A stretch of 64,000 bases of DNA, taken from Bacteroidales bacterium. Its GTDB lineage: Bacteria > Bacteroidota > Bacteroidia > Bacteroidales > VadinHA17. How positions within the stretch are numbered: position 1 is the stretch's first letter; each line of letters begins with the position of its first letter. Location: the NCBI GenBank assembly GCA_003141895.1, contig PLNT01000011.1, forward strand, positions 109,112 through 173,111, in the 5' to 3' direction. The notes under the pieces are model-generated. The model saw only the letters and a list, made by a program, of their open reading frames with translations. It ran no database searches and was not told the DNA's origin. Made by a program: the position numbers and the translations under genes. Positions 35,876-47,344 of the stretch are shown here, in pieces.

Positions 35876-35888
35876 CACCTTATTGAAC

Positions 35889-35945
35889 AAGTGGAAAGAT
35901 TTGAGCTGATTGCAACCACAGGAAAAAAATGCTAAACCACGTACG
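35889..35945 (+). promoter_or_regulatory. SAM-II-like riboswitch upstream of metK
   Basis: The order GTGG-aaa-GATTTGA...GATTGCAA-CCAC...GCTAAA reproduces the conserved SAM-II (metA motif) elements. P1 is GTGG/CCAC, the loop has GATTT and TTGCA, and GCTAAA lies downstream of P1. It sits between the predicted transcription start and the metK ATG (36012). I could not resolve the pseudoknot partner strand. A second CCAC directly after GCTAAA could compete for pairing with GTGG. A SAM synthetase gene behind a SAM sensor makes functional sense (end-product repression). Confidence 0.75.
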
Positions 35946-38508: not shown

Positions 38509-41500
38509 TCATAAATTTGGTGAGAGCCATTTTGCAGCTTCATCTCTTGTAAAATTCTTCCTCTTTGCATAATCGTTCAACTGCCCGGAGTCTATTTTTC
38601 CTAAATTAAAATATGCAGATCCCGGGTGCGAAAAAACATACCCGCTGACAGATGCAGGAGGTATCATTGCAAAATTTTCAGTTAATGCAGCTCCTATTGC
38701 CTTCTCTGCCTCAAGTATATCAAAGATAGCTTGTTTTTCGCTATGATCCGGACAAGCAGGATAGCCTGGAGCAGGTCTTATGCCTTTATACTTTATTTTA
38801 AGAATCTCGTCAATTGTCAGCTTTTCATCTTTTGCATAACCCCAATATTCCTTTCTTATCTTCTCATGGAGCCATTCTGCAGCAGCCTCAGCTAATCGAT
38901 CGCTTAGTATTCTGATCATAATGGTAGCATAATCATCCTCTTTGTATTTGTTGAATTTCCCTTTATCAATATCTGCTGTCACTACAAAGACTCCCATCCA
39001 GTCAGATAAACCATCAGTTCCGGGAGCAACATAATCAGAAAGTGAGAGGTTGGGGACTCCCTTATCTTTTTGCTCCTGGTTCCTCAAAAATCTGAAAACG
39101 GACTTTATCTTTTTCCTGCTTTTATCTGAAAATACTTTGACATCATCTCCCTCAGAAACAGCCGGGTATAAACCAAAAACAGCCTTGGCATTCAGAAGTT
39201 TCTCATCTATTATCTTCTTAAGATACATTTGTCCATCGTCGAACAATTTTTTTGCCTCAACTCCTTTTACAGGATCGCTGAAGATAGCAGGATATTTACC
39301 TGACAATTTCCAGGCAAAGAAAAAATAAGTCCAGTCTATATATTTTGTTAATTCATTAAGATCTATTTCATTGAGAATATGAATTCCGGGTTTCTCCGGC
39401 TCATAAAGTCTGAGAGTCTGCCAGTCAGTCTGAAACTTGTTTTTCCTTGCTTCGGCTAATGATATAAGATTTCTTTCGGCCTTATGAGAACTATGCTCTT
39501 CGCGCATTTTGTTATACTTTGTTTTTATCGACGCGACGTAAGAACTGTTATCCTTCTGTAGCAGAGATGATAATACTCCGGCTGCCTTGGACGCATCTTT
39601 TACATGGATAACACTATTGGAATATGCCGGTGCTATTTTTACTGCAGCATGTATCTCCGATGTTGTTGCCCCACCAATAAGAAGAGGAAGAGAAATTTTT
39701 CTGCGTTCCATTTCTGAAGCTACATGAACCATTTCTTCGAGCGAAGGTGTTATTAAACCGCTCAAACCAATAATATCAGCTTTTTCTTTCAGGGCTGTAT
39801 CAATTATCTTTTCAGCCGGAACCATAACACCAAGATCAATAATCTCATAATTGTTGCACGACAGAACAACACCCACTATATTCTTTCCTATGTCGTGAAC
39901 ATCTCCTTTTACAGTTGCGAGCAAAACTTTACCAGCAATTTTTTTGGCTCCCCCTTCGCTTTCTTTTTCAATATACGGAGCGAGTTTCGAAACTGCCTTT
40001 TTCATCACCCTGGCACTTTTAACTACCTGGGGAAGAAACATTTTACCTGACCCAAAAAGATCTCCTACTTCATTCATCCCTCCCATTAAAGGTCCTTCTA
40101 TAAGCTCAATTGACCTTGCGAAAAGCGGTCTGGCTTCTTCAATATCCTGCTCAATAAATTCATCCAGACCTCTTATCAGAGAGTGCTTAATTCTGTCGAT
40201 AACGGGGAGCTTACGCCAGGCATCTTCCTTTTCTTCTTTCTTGCCTTCATTCTTTATGCCCTCAGCAAATTTCACGAGTCTTTCGGTGGAATCTTTTCTC
40301 CTGTTCAGCACAACATCTTCCACAAGCTGAAGGAGGTCAGGCTTTATTTCAGTATAAACCTGGAGCATACCAGGATTAACGATTCCCATATCCAATCCTG
40401 CCTTAATGGCATAAAAAAGGAACACCGAATGCATTGCTTCACGAACCTTATCCGTACCCCGGAATGAAAATGAAAGATTGCTTATTCCGCCGCTTACCCT
40501 CGAATAGGGAAGGTTTTGTTTAATCCATTCCGTTGTCTTTATATAATCAATTGCATAATTGTTATGCTCTTCAATTCCTGTCGCGATGGCAAGAACATTC
40601 GGATCAAAAATTATATCTTCCGGAGGGAAATTAATTTTATCAATAAGGAGCCGATAGCATCTTTCAGCAACACTTATTCTCTTTGCGTATGTATCAGCTT
40701 GTCCTGTTTCGTCAAACAACATTACAACAGCTGCAGCACCATATTTCCGTAACGTTCTGGCATGGTCCAGAAAAACCTCCTCACCTTCTTTCAGACTGAT
40801 TGAATTTACTATTGATTTGCCCTGTATACATTTCAGAGCTGCCTCGATAGTGTTCCACCTTGAGGAATCTATCATAAGTGGCAGTTTTGAGATGTCTGGT
40901 TCCGCCATGATCAGATTCACAAACTTCACCATTGCTTTTTCTGAATCAAGCATGGCTTCATCCATGCATATGTCAATCACCTGAGCACCACCTTCAACTT
41001 GATTTCTTGCAATAGACAATGCCTCATCATATTTTTCTTCTTTTATAAGTCGTGCAAATTTTATCGATCCGGAGACATTGGTTCGCTCTCCGATATTCAC
41101 AAAATTTGTTTCAGGAGTAATTGTCAGAACTTCAAGACCGCTGAGTCTTGTATATTTTTTTATTTCAGGTTTAATCCGTGGTTTATATTGTTTTGAAACT
41201 TCTGCTATTCTTTTTATATGCTGAGGTGTTGTGCCACAACATCCCCCGATGATATTCACCCAGCCTTCTTTCATAAAATCCTCAGCAATTGAGGCCATAT
41301 ATTCTGCTGACTGATCGTATTCGCCAAACTGATTAGGAAGACCTGCATTTGGATGAGCCGATGTATAAAAACCCGACTTCAGAGATAACTCTTCAACGTA
41401 TGGGCGTAACTGTTCAGCTCCAAGTGCACAATTCAATCCGATGCTAAAGAGAGGAAAATGTGAGACTGATACCATAAAAGCTTCAAGAGTCTGACCGGTT

Positions 41501-42159
41501 AAGGTCCTGCCGCTGGCATCGGTAATTGTTCCCGACACCATAACAGGAAGAGTTATTCCTTTCTCCCCAAACACCGAGTCAATTGCAAAAAGAGCAGCTT
41601 TGCAATTTAAGACATCGAAAACAGTCTCAACAAGCAGAATATCAACACCCCCATCAATGAGGCCGCGAGCCTGTTCAGAATAAGCATAAACAAGTTCATC
41701 AAAAGAAATTGCCCTGGCACCGGGATCGTTTACATCGGATGACATTGATGCTGTCCGGTTTGTTGGTCCAAGGGTTCCGGCGATATAATGTGATTGAGGC
41801 TCAGCTGAATTTTCATACTCAACAATTGCTCTTGATGCCAGACGGGCGGCTTGCAGGTTCAGATTATACACCTGATCCTCCATCCTGTAATCCCACATGG
41901 AGATCCTGTTGGAATTAAAAGTGTTTGTGGTAATTATATCAGCACCGGCTTCAAGGTACTGTTTATGAATATTCCTGATTATCTCTGGTTTTGTTAAGGT
42001 CAAAAGATCATTATTACCTTTTTGTGAATTTGGATGATCCTTAAATTCCTCACCACGGAAATCACTTTCAGGAAGCTTGTGTTTCTGGATCATAGTCCCC
42101 ATTGCTCCATCGAGAATGAGAATCTTTTGTTTAATAATATCTTCTAGTTTTTGTTTCAA
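38509..42159 (-). CDS. metH: Cobalamin-dependent methionine synthase
   Basis: Transfers a methyl group from methyl-THF to homocysteine through cobalamin. The 1216-residue protein has all four modules. The homocysteine domain has the zinc ligands in GLNCALG and GGCCGTTP (about 240 and 310). The pterin domain starts with [11 protein letters not shown] near 355. The B12 cap and B12-binding domain have the cobalt ligand motif [11 protein letters not shown] near 755. The C-terminal reactivation domain ends with [15 protein letters not shown]. The perfect -7 element upstream leaves a leader of about 20 bases, too short for a cobalamin riboswitch. Confidence 0.97.
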
Positions 42160-42299: not shown

Positions 42300-43517
42300 T
42301 CAGTTCTCGTTTTGAATTGATGTGAATTTTCTTCCGGTATTCACTATAAAAACATCCATCTTCCGTAGTTGTTCTCTCATCTCGTAAAGACGTTCAAGGT
42401 TCACCAAACCAATTACATATTTATATTGCCGGCCACTGAAGTACTCTGATACTTCCTCAAAACCAAATAATTCTCTGTCAGCTTCATTGTTATACCGCAG
42501 GTAAACCTCCAGTTTATGATTCCTGGTATATTTAGATACTGTTCCCTGCTGATACTTTTTGTATTCATACCTGTAACCATAAGAATTTGCAGATATATCT
42601 GAAAGGACAGCGCTTCCGGTTGCATGGCCACCCGCTCCTTTGCCGCTGAAAAATTGTTTATCGGCAAAAGCTGCTTCGGTTATTACTCCGTTATATTCAT
42701 TATCGACATTATAAAGATATTTATCGGAAGAAATAAATCGGGGGAGAACAAAGCTGGTTATTGTGTTTTCATTAGTCTTACCCACAAATGGCACCAGCTT
42801 GATCTTAAATCCCTTCTCCTTTGCGTACTGGATATCAAATTTTGAGATTGTATTGATCCCATAATGGAACACCTGCTCCGGTTCAAGGAAGAGCCCGTAA
42901 GCATGACCCGTAATAATGCAAAGCTTGTACTTTGCATCCCAACCTTCAACATCAAGAGTCGGATCTGATTCGGCAAAACCCTTTGCCTGAGCCTCTTTCA
43001 ATGCATCATCGTAGGGCAATCCTTCATTATGCATTTTTGTCAGGATATAATTCGTGGTCCCGTTAAGAATTCCTCGTAAGGAATACAGAAGCTCATTATC
43101 ATAATATTCCTCAAGATTTCTTATGATCGGAATACTGGCTCCTGCGGATGCCTCATAAAGAAGAGATACTTTGCATTCCGATTGAAGTGCAACGAGTTCC
43201 TTAAAATATTTCGCTACCATCATCTTATTGGCTGTTACAACATTTTTTCCTCCCCGCATTGCAGCAGTAACAATATTAAATGCTTCATCGGCATCGTCAA
43301 TTAACTCAACAACAAGGTTAATTGAGGAATCATTCAATATCTCATTCTTATCAAAAGTGAAATTTGACATTGGTATACGCCTCTTTTTTGACGGATCTTT
43401 TACACAAATCTTCACTATGTCGGCCTTGAAGCCTTTACTGCTGTTTAAAACATCGTGCAAGCCCTGGCCCACGCAGCCGTACCCAAATAAACCAATCCTT
43501 AATTTTTCCTGTGTCAT
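42300..43517 (-). CDS. hom: Homoserine dehydrogenase
   Basis: Reduces aspartate semialdehyde to homoserine, the branch point to methionine and threonine. The protein is 405 residues from ATG 43517 and starts MTQEKLRIGLFGYGCVGQGL, an NAD(P)-binding glycine motif at the N-terminus. LYEASAGASIPIIRNLEEY, LRGILNGTTNYILTKM and DPTLDVEGWDAKYKL are catalytic-domain signatures. A C-terminal ACT-like segment (YVIGLVNLERLYEMREQLR) suggests feedback regulation. The track start at 43625 adds 36 residues that come from a repeat region and is rejected. It is a monofunctional enzyme, not fused to aspartokinase. Confidence 0.94.
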   Translation of the reverse strand: MTQEKLRIGLFGYGCVGQGLHDVLNSSKGFKADIVKICVKDPSKKRRIPMSNFTFDKNEILNDSSINLVVELIDDADEAFNIVTAAMRGGKNVVTANKMMVAKYFKELVALQSECKVSLLYEASAGASIPIIRNLEEYYDNELLYSLRGILNGTTNYILTKMHNEGLPYDDALKEAQAKGFAESDPTLDVEGWDAKYKLCIITGHAYGLFLEPEQVFHYGINTISKFDIQYAKEKGFKIKLVPFVGKTNENTITSFVLPRFISSDKYLYNVDNEYNGVITEAAFADKQFFSGKGAGGHATGSAVLSDISANSYGYRYEYKKYQQGTVSKYTRNHKLEVYLRYNNEADRELFGFEEVSEYFSGRQYKYVIGLVNLERLYEMREQLRKMDVFIVNTGRKFTSIQNEN

Positions 43518-43568
43518 AAATAATTTATAAAATATTCTTATCTCCTTAATCTGCGAAAATCTGCGTGA

Positions 43569-43872: not shown

Positions 43873-45261
<1,389 letters not shown>

Positions 45262-45275
45262 TTACAAATCAAATT

Positions 45276-45344
45276 TTACCGGCACATGCACATAGGCATG
45301 AGCGGCATGATAAAGTTGTTGTGTGTTAAATGAAAAGAATTCAT
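45276..45344 (-). CDS. Predicted Met/Cys-rich leader peptide of metY (22 aa)
   Basis: An ATG-initiated ORF of 22 codons ending in TAA, between the SAM-I aptamer and metY. The second half reads IMPLMPMCMCR, so five of 22 residues are Met (including the start) and two are Cys. These are the amino acids whose synthesis the downstream enzyme serves. It starts 17 bases after the last P1 base of the aptamer and ends about 100 bases before metY. It is too short for the ORF track. A role as a translated attenuator or coupling peptide is inferred from position and composition; no homologue was searched. Confidence 0.6.
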   Translation of the reverse strand: MNSFHLTHNNFIMPLMPMCMCR

Positions 45345-45360
45345 GTTTTTTCGTGTTAAA

Positions 45361-45475
45361 TTTTTATCATCTCCCGGCTTTCCGGGATTAGGTATTGGCA
45401 CCGTTCTCCTGAATATTCAGGATTGGTTGCCAGGGTTTCTCAGAGCCTAATCTCTCCACCCTTCTTAATAAAAAC
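45361..45475 (-). promoter_or_regulatory. SAM-I riboswitch (S-box) upstream of metY
   Basis: On the - strand the order AAGAAGGGTGGAGAGATTAGG...CTGAGAAACCCTGGCAACC...GGTGCCAATACCTAA matches the S-box core. P1 pairs TTTTTAT with ATAAAAA. The pseudoknot TTAGG/CCTAA and the P4 stem CCCGG...CCGGG are also visible. No classical terminator hairpin with a U-run follows; a leader ORF follows instead, so the expression platform may act at translation. Confidence 0.92.
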
Positions 45476-45513
45476 CAAACACCCTATAGGAAGGATTATT
45501 TGATTTGTGGGGA

Positions 45514-45545
45514 CAAAAATAAAAAAGAATTTCTTAAACTCCAAA
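45514..45545 (-). promoter_or_regulatory. Predicted promoter of the SAM-I/metY transcript
   Basis: On the - strand: TTTG (45542-45545), 20 bases, TATTTTTG (45514-45521). Transcription would start near 45507, about 30 bases ahead of the aptamer. Confidence 0.65.
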
Positions 45546-45623
45546 TAATTTTGAGATTACCCCCTGTTTTTTTGGTTTATATGTCTTTTTTATTGTTTTT
45601 TGTTACAATGAGTCCGATAGCAA

Positions 45624-45781
45624 TGTAATTCTTCATAATTGCTGTAACAAATCTAGCCTTTTCTAAGATATTTACCCCCTTTCAATTTCCCCCAAGGGGG
45701 AAAGGTTTTGCTATGCCTTCCCCCTTGGGGGAAGTCCCGATAGCTATCGGGAGGGAAGGGGGTAATCTGAAAAGAATTACA
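45624..45781. mobile_element. MITE-like element, copy 2 (short form)
   Basis: Left end TGTAATTCTTCATAATT... as in the other copies and right end ...AAGAATTACA, 158 bp in all; the right part is shortened relative to the 222-bp form. The palindromic core is nearly identical to copy 1. It lies between the metY promoter and cysS. The outer flanks atagc / gctat extend the inverted repeat, so no target duplication is claimed. Confidence 0.7.
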
Positions 45782-45862: not shown

Positions 45863-47344
45863 ATGCAGAATAATCTTTTCATCTACAACACGCTTTCAAA
45901 GAAGAAAGAACAATTTAAACCGCTTCATCCTCCATTCGTTGGAATATATGTATGCGGACCTACTGTATACAGCCATGCTCATCTCGGCCATGCCCGCCCT
46001 GCAATCACTTTTGATTTATTATTTCGTTACCTCACACATCTTGAATACAGGGTGCGGTACGTAAGAAATATAACTGATGTCGGCCATCTTGAAAATGAGA
46101 CACTTGGTGAAGGCGAGGACCGGATAGAAAAGAAAGCAAGGCAGGAGCATCTTGAACCAATGGAAGTTGTCCAGAAATATGTGAACACTTATCACAGGAA
46201 CATGGATCAGCTTAACACTCTCTCACCATCAATTGAACCAAGAGCCACCGGACACATAATTGAGCAGATTGAACTTATTAAGATTCTTATCAAAAATGGA
46301 TATGGCTATGAGTCAAATGGCTCAGTGTATTTCGATATCCTGAAATATAATGAGAAATATAAGTATGGCAAACTCTCAGGAAGAGTTCTTGAAGATCTGA
46401 TCAGCAATACCCGCGATACCGAAGGAAAAGACGAAAAACGCAATCCTTTTGACTTTGCTCTGTGGAAAAAAGCGAGTCCTGAGCATGCTATGAGATGGCC
46501 TTCACCATGGAGTGATGGTTTTCCGGGCTGGCATCTTGAATGTTCAGCCATGAGTATTAAATATCTTGGAGAAGTATTTGATATTCATGGGGGAGGAATG
46601 GATCTCCAGTTTCCTCACCATGAGTGTGAGATAGCACAATCTACCGCTGCTCTCGGAAAGGAATCAGTTCGTTACTGGATGCACAATAATATGATTACAA
46701 TTAACGGTCAGAAAATGGCCCGATCACTTGGTAATTTTATAACGCTTGACCAGCTTTTCACTGGCAATCATCCGGTTTTAGAGCAGGCTTATTCTCCCAT
46801 GACTATCAGGTTCTTTATCCTGCAGGCTCATTACCGGAGTACGGTGGATTTTTCAAATGAAGCTCTCCAGGCCGCTGAAAAAGGATTTCTGAAACTTATG
46901 AAAGGTATTGAATCCCTGAAGAAAATTAAACCTTCAGATCAGTCTACATTTGACATCAAAGGGTTTAGAGAAAAGTGCTATGCAGCTCTTGATGATGATC
47001 TTAACAGCCCGGTATTATTATCTCATCTGTTTGATGGAGTGAGATTTATTAATTCGGTACTGGATGGCAGTGAAAAAATCGATGCGTCCGGTCTTGATGC
47101 ATTAAAGGATCTTTTCAACACATTTGTCTTTGACCTTCTTGGATTAAAAGATGAAACTACAGGTGCAGCTGATGACAAGCTGATGGATGAGTTGATGAAA
47201 ATTATTATCGATCTCCGGCAGGAAGCAAAAAATCTCAAACAATTTGAAGTTTCTGATAAAATAAGAAAAGAACTTAATAATATCGGGATAACATTAAAGG
47301 ACACGAAAGATGGGGTTTCTGATTGGGAGAAAAACCCCCTATGA
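45863..47344 (+). CDS. cysS: Cysteinyl-tRNA synthetase
   Basis: Charges tRNA-Cys. The 493-residue class I enzyme has the zinc-binding first motif [18 protein letters not shown] (HLGH), [10 protein letters not shown] with the second zinc Cys, [11 protein letters not shown] and the KMSKS-equivalent KMARSLGN. The last codons (WEKNPL) run into a C/G-run palindrome, so the natural C-terminus has probably been shaped by repeat insertion. Confidence 0.96.

Follow-up and report, generated by a model that had tools for sequence, protein, structure and literature searches.

The question raised by this locus is whether a SAM-I riboswitch and a short reading frame rich in methionine and cysteine codons act together on the methionine genes that lie behind them. 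The locus is part of a 64,000-nt stretch of DNA from a Bacteroidales bacterium, hereafter the window. A first-pass annotation of the window had described an S-box aptamer upstream of metY, followed after 17 bases by a 22-codon ORF with the second half IMPLMPMCMCR and an expression platform without U-run terminator, and had proposed that the peptide senses the charging of Met-tRNA or Cys-tRNA. The following features of the locus were considered:

45361..45474 (-): SAM-I (S-box) aptamer with an A/U-only P1 helix; RF00162, 76.2 bits
45345..45360 (-): A-rich spacer of 16 nt, from the 3' strand of P1 to the leader ATG
45276..45344 (-): leader ORF of 22 codons, MNSFHLTHNNFIMPLMPMCMCR*; ATG at 45344, stop at 45276
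45276..45308 (-): Met/Cys-rich tail of the leader ORF, ATG CCG CTC ATG CCT ATG TGC ATG TGC CGG TAA
45199..45240 (-): second hairpin, GGCCGGA...TCCGGT, between the leader ORF and metY
43873..45174 (-): metY, O-acetylhomoserine/O-acetylserine sulfhydrylase, ATG at 45174; TIGR01326, 636 bits, cut-off 495
42300..43520 (-): hom, homoserine dehydrogenase, second gene of the presumed operon; NF004976, 318 bits, cut-off 205
38509..42159 (-): metH, cobalamin-dependent methionine synthase, third gene of the presumed operon; NF007024, 1950 bits, cut-off 1497

Organization of the metY-hom-metH leader

The match to the RF00162 covariance model extended over its full length (1-108) with a score well above the gathering score of 44.4, and this aptamer was the only SAM-I copy in the genome. 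The aptamer lies 5' of metY, hom and metH and in the same orientation; cysS (at 45863) diverges from this leader. The identity of the aptamer and of metY as well as the coordinates of the leader ORF were thus confirmed, and its ATG does begin at the 17th base past the aptamer, 16 nt intervening. This spacer is expected to fall within the 30S footprint of the leader ORF. In agreement with the first-pass annotation, positions 45100-45700 around the SAM-I/metY leader contained no hairpin that resembled a terminator and was followed by a U-run. Scanning the window with Rfam at the gathering score yielded SAM and SAM-II only and no T-box.

The SAM-II riboswitch (35885-35945 (+), 60 bits) was located immediately 5' of metK (about 36013). 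A single genome therefore uses SAM-II for metK and SAM-I together with a leader peptide for metY-hom-metH. No comparable Met/Cys-rich ORF was seen in the SAM-II/metK leader. The region between the metY leader and cysS (45676-45775) contained dense inverted repeats, ccccaagggggaa / ttcccccttgggg and cccgatagctatcggg.

Conservation of the leader ORF within the genus

A leader ORF occupied the same place in roughly two dozen metY loci from the window's GTDB genus. Among the 37 distinct ORF sequences collected from the genus no frameshift was found, and pN/pS was 0.46 in the frame of the ORF, whereas the other two gave 0.85 and 1.18. The stop codon lay further on in 3/37 of these sequences and two codons earlier in 1/37. 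The expectation of an ORF conserved in related leaders, with retention of its start and stop codons and purifying substitution in frame, was therefore borne out. The residues Met16, Pro17, Met18 and Met20 (Met-Pro-Met-x-Met) were invariant in all 37 sequences, whereas codon 19 encoded C, D, R or G and codon 21 mostly C or R. The proposed density of Met and Cys thus held for the methionines; the cysteines are not fixed in the genus, although they are strongly enriched across families (see below).

The tail was also conserved at the level of the RNA. The Pro17 codon was CCT in 37/37 sequences whereas Pro14 used three codons, and CATGCCTATGNNCATG was nearly invariant among the leaders of the genus. 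The tail was predicted to fold into a hairpin (11 pairs, -13.3 kcal/mol) that extends into the stop codon, and the outer pairs of this hairpin co-varied, with compensating variants in four leaders (L042, L048, L049 and L052). The fixed CCT codon and the co-varying hairpin, taken together with the invariant methionines, indicated that the tail is constrained both as a peptide or codon series and as an RNA. Such a dual constraint is what would be expected from the sequence of control codons placed inside an attenuator stem. The fixation of CCT nevertheless shows RNA-level constraint on part of the tail and counts to that extent against the two-input reading.

The second hairpin was kept in the nearest relatives only, and in the window it is not followed by a U-run. 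Its 5' arm could alternatively pair with the terminal CCGGU of the leader ORF; this possible CCGG pairing switch was likewise restricted to the nearest relatives. A search across the whole genus for a common structure downstream of the leader ORF found none, which counts against the two-input reading.

Met/Cys-tailed leader ORFs in other families

SAM-I loci were collected from 198 genomes of the order, from the phylum and from named genomes; outside the window, the names of downstream genes were assigned by sequence motifs. Two types of SAM-I expression platform were found, one with an intrinsic terminator and one with an ATG close behind the aptamer. In 17/21 leaders with aptamers ending GATAAG or GATGAG an intrinsic terminator (a hairpin with a U-run) was present, whereas U-run hairpins occurred in 4/50 ORF-type leaders against a null of 4%. 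Terminator-type and ORF-type SAM-I leaders are, as judged from their sequences, alternative platforms, and the arrangement with a Met/Cys leader ORF is missing from those of the terminator type. In leaders with a mostly A/U P1, the nearby ATG opened either the gene itself or a short ORF. In six cases metH was opened directly after the aptamer at an offset of 12-20 nt, similar to the offset of the leader ORFs, which in 44 Met/Cys leader ORFs from outside the genus was 2-17 nt and mostly 8-14 nt.

The short ORFs from outside the genus comprised 14-47 codons and had no obvious sequence in common between families. Met-rich tails from different families included MRMR, MCMR, MDMRGMRM, MPRMR and MCMCSTG, and the genes downstream of the Met/Cys leaders were metY, metH, aspartokinase, metX and a homocysteine-biosynthesis-like gene. 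With each family counted once, 21 of the 37 non-terminator SAM-I families of the order, the window's family included, had an ORF with a Met/Cys tail. Among the remaining families 6/37 had a short ORF without such a tail and 10/37 had no such short ORF, and both groups count against the two-input reading. In two leaders (L068 and L085), whose ORF has no Met/Cys tail, the stop codon of the ORF overlaps or abuts the start codon of metH, which suggests SAM-gated translational coupling as a third platform. At another locus (L119, G209:C332) the tail was present, the original stop was lost, and neither an aptamer match nor an adjoining met gene was seen; this is apparently a decayed leader copy.

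In order to quantify the composition of the tails, the Met and Cys residues among the last ten were counted. The mean was 2.78 in a set of 76 short ORFs, which includes about eight strays of the window's own genus (with TATGCC in place of CATGCC), and 2.56 in the 68 ORFs left after their exclusion. Under a first-order Markov null the mean was 0.57 +/- 0.08, and none of 500 replicates reached the value of the 76-ORF set. At least two Met/Cys residues were found in 44 of the 68 tails. Other ORFs of the same leaders had a mean of 0.48. In leaders of TPP riboswitches from the same order the mean was 0.54 and 0/39 short ORFs had at least three Met/Cys residues in the tail, which rules out that any ORF downstream of a riboswitch in these genomes ends in Met and Cys. 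Within the last 33 nt of the 68 ORFs, 98 ATGs were in frame and 17 out of frame (8 and 9), with a binomial p of about 2e-30 that includes no correction for phylogeny; past the stop codon ATGs were even across the three frames. The ORF tails plus 70 nt showed an excess of structure over shuffled sequences, with a mean z of -1.46 compared with +0.08 inside genes.

In the Cytophagales, the metY leaders carried poly-Cys tails (e.g., ICMCCCCACCC*); the carriers include Chryseolinea serpens, C. lacunae and Chryseosolibacter indicus. For most of the Cytophagales leaders examined, a GCAACA segment further downstream offers a pairing partner for the Cys codons. The interval from the poly-Cys ORF to metY contained a conserved stem-like element, UAGCGUACGRCC-CUGCC-nnGUGACRGGCA-GGCUA (in L203, L206, L212, L218, L221, L224, L226 and L228), for which no Rfam match was obtained when it was looked for in L221. 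This element may be the readout of an attenuator or a separate RNA. The predicted GCAACA pairing and the further stem are consistent with an attenuator.

Met/Cys leader ORFs without the aptamer

Some relatives possess the ORF without the riboswitch. Two loci (L162 and L163) carried MARYFSIRTLSLQRKPMCMCR* in front of metY without a SAM-I match, the sequence available upstream of the former being only 371 nt, and MISHHLNQENLLISIMPMGMVR* preceded metH at a locus (L115) without a SAM-I match by the HMM built in this analysis. In the metY leaders of Ignavibacteria and Kapabacteria (L208 and L213) a MCNNMMQMCMMMCC core was found without SAM-I. The persistence of Met-rich ORFs without SAM-I indicated that the peptide module serves a function independent of the aptamer. 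By this comparison SAM-I looks like a gate added to the peptide module, and the Ignavibacteria and Kapabacteria leaders hint that the Met/Cys leader may be older than its combination with SAM-I.

The view of the ORF as a tRNA sensor was thereby strengthened on comparative grounds, as Met/Cys tails recur across families at the same place behind the aptamer, are Cys-rich in the Cytophagales and persist without the aptamer in some relatives.

Proposed mechanism of two-input control

These observations suggest that, in this bacterium and many relatives in the Bacteroidota, a single mRNA probably brings the methionine biosynthesis genes under two signals, SAM and charged Met- or Cys-tRNA. We consider it likely that the leader is a two-input device, in which SAM gates initiation at the leader ORF and stalling at the Met/Cys codons adds tRNA charging as an input. 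Because the aptamer ends 16 nt before the leader ATG, the SAM-stabilised P1 would sit in the ribosome landing zone and would lower initiation of the leader ORF. The accessibility of the leader start computed with ViennaRNA fell from 0.65 to 0.53 with the aptamer forced, a modest change that counts against the two-input reading; the proposed SAM gating thus rests on position. At low SAM the leader ORF would be translated, and scarcity of Met-tRNA would stall the ribosome at the 3' Met/Cys codons, as suggested by codon content and frame. The charged tRNA sensed would be Cys-tRNA in the Cytophagales and perhaps both Met- and Cys-tRNA in the window. Sensing of Met starvation by leader Met codons is, however, less documented than sensing through Trp, His, Leu or Cys codons, and this weakens the two-input reading.

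A stalled ribosome would open the hairpin of the ORF tail and alter downstream folding or the access of Rho, switching metY-hom-metH on. The absence of an intrinsic terminator makes a classic terminator less likely than either a masked metY start or termination by Rho. At high SAM or with plentiful charged tRNA, metY-hom-metH would not be expressed, so that the predicted logic is NOT SAM AND uncharged tRNA. We also favour, on balance, a wider claim: that an aptamer gating a Met/Cys-codon leader peptide, i.e., a riboswitch and a ribosome-based tRNA sensor in series without an intrinsic terminator, is a widespread architecture in Bacteroidota.

Alternative explanations

The conserved part of the leader could be an RNA element, either the tail hairpin or a CAUG-rich binding site for a protein, with the open frame as a by-product. 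The compensating variants in the hairpin, the invariable CCT codon of Pro17 and the near-invariance of CATGCCTATGNNCATG in the genus agree with such an element. It would not account for 98/115 ATGs lying in the frame of the start codon in ORFs that are unrelated to each other and 14-47 codons long, for a pN/pS clearly below 1 solely in the ORF frame, nor for the poly-Cys tails of the Cytophagales, which follow the same amino-acid logic in a wholly different sequence. The ATG frame counts rule out an RNA motif as the sole explanation of the tail, and we regard an RNA-only element as improbable. That the ORF is an accident of an AT-rich leader or an annotation artefact is scarcely credible: ATG-opened short ORFs are common in leaders, but the Markov null stayed far below the observed tail composition, and the TPP control and the 37 conserved sequences refute this explanation, barring an alignment error.

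Two other explanations accept that the ORF is translated. In one of them SAM controls leader translation, the translating ribosome acts on metY by blocking Rho or by reinitiation, and the Met/Cys codons do not sense tRNA. Riboswitch-controlled uORFs of this sort have been shown in Mycobacterium tuberculosis (PMC11260477, PMC12810186), and the lack of an intrinsic terminator also agrees with this explanation. The convergence of unrelated ORFs on Met and Cys before the stop, which is missing from the TPP leaders, and the retention of Met-rich ORFs in leaders that lack the aptamer would be left unexplained, and we judge this explanation unlikely. In the other, the ribosome would be arrested not through scarcity of charged tRNA but by the nascent peptide itself, once it had bound a ligand such as a metal, a thiol or redox cue, or else SAM or Met within the exit tunnel. 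The invariant Met-Pro-Met-x-Met of the genus would suit such a peptide, and poly-Cys could conceivably bind metals or report redox state. The families share composition but not sequence, so codon sensing fits better than a specific arrest peptide, and the targets are genes of the methionine pathway; a nascent-peptide sensor therefore seems very doubtful.

Comparison with known regulatory systems

A riboswitch and a leader-peptide attenuator are generally regarded as two separate regulators. In the two-input reading of the metY leader, the riboswitch seems to decide whether a sensor of tRNA charging gets translated, which would put methionine synthesis under the control of two inputs at a locus without a T-box match. 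If true, this would account for the Bacteroidota SAM-I leaders without terminator, in which the aptamer gives no obvious clue to the expression platform, and would place a sulfur-amino-acid leader peptide before metY, metH, metX and aspartokinase genes. The design is testable in culture, since strains of Chryseolinea and Pedobacter carry a Met/Cys leader.

Classic attenuators of the trp/his type consist of a translated short leader with control codons in a hairpin near the stop. The window leader resembles them in its short ORF and in the position of the control codons inside the hairpin, but it has no intrinsic terminator and a metabolite aptamer apparently gates initiation of the leader itself. 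Canestrari et al. (2020) reportedly worked on poly-cysteine leader ORFs in Actinobacteria. Actinobacterial poly-Cys leader ORFs lack a terminator hairpin, and Rho has been suggested to act there (PMC1262725). They share with the leaders discussed here a Cys run close to the stop codon of a short ORF and the missing terminator hairpin; they differ in that no preceding riboswitch has been described and that they precede cys operons or cbs, not metY. In the cysS uORFC-8-2 motif of Rhodobacterales, the first stem of what is predicted to be a ribosome-mediated attenuator contains Cys control codons (PMC8632094). Control codons are within an attenuator stem in this case too, but a U-run intrinsic terminator is present and a riboswitch is absent. 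For one Flavobacterium, clues to leader-peptide attenuation of amino-acid operons have been given, with SAM unmentioned (PMC9723704).

In M. tuberculosis, a B12 riboswitch with a uORF (metE, ppe2) and an Mbox with a uORF (pe20) have been described (PMC11260477, PMC12810186). A riboswitch with a translational platform likewise controls a short uORF there, with Rho-dependent termination involved for the Mbox; in the text consulted the uORFs are not described as rich in the amino acid of the pathway or as tRNA sensors, and ligands, phylum and genes are different. The combination of SAM-I with a Met/Cys peptide, which the first-pass annotation had taken to be undescribed, was not found in the literature searched, mostly papers accessible without subscription, although absence from it is no proof.

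The further claim that a leader answering to both SAM and tRNA would be unusual has to be qualified, as tandems of SAM-I and T-box(Met) are known in front of metX and metY, with a predicted NOT A AND B logic in which SAM is low and tRNA(Met) uncharged; nine cases (7 + 2) have been counted (PMC9481103). In both systems SAM-I comes first and would be followed by a sensor of tRNA(Met) charging, the target genes are the same and the logic is comparable. The T-box RNA of the tandem reads the tRNA directly, whereas the window leader has a run of Met/Cys codons in a short ORF and no T-box match. Against the nine cases of the tandem, leader peptides of this kind were found in at least 21 families of one order and in the Cytophagales.
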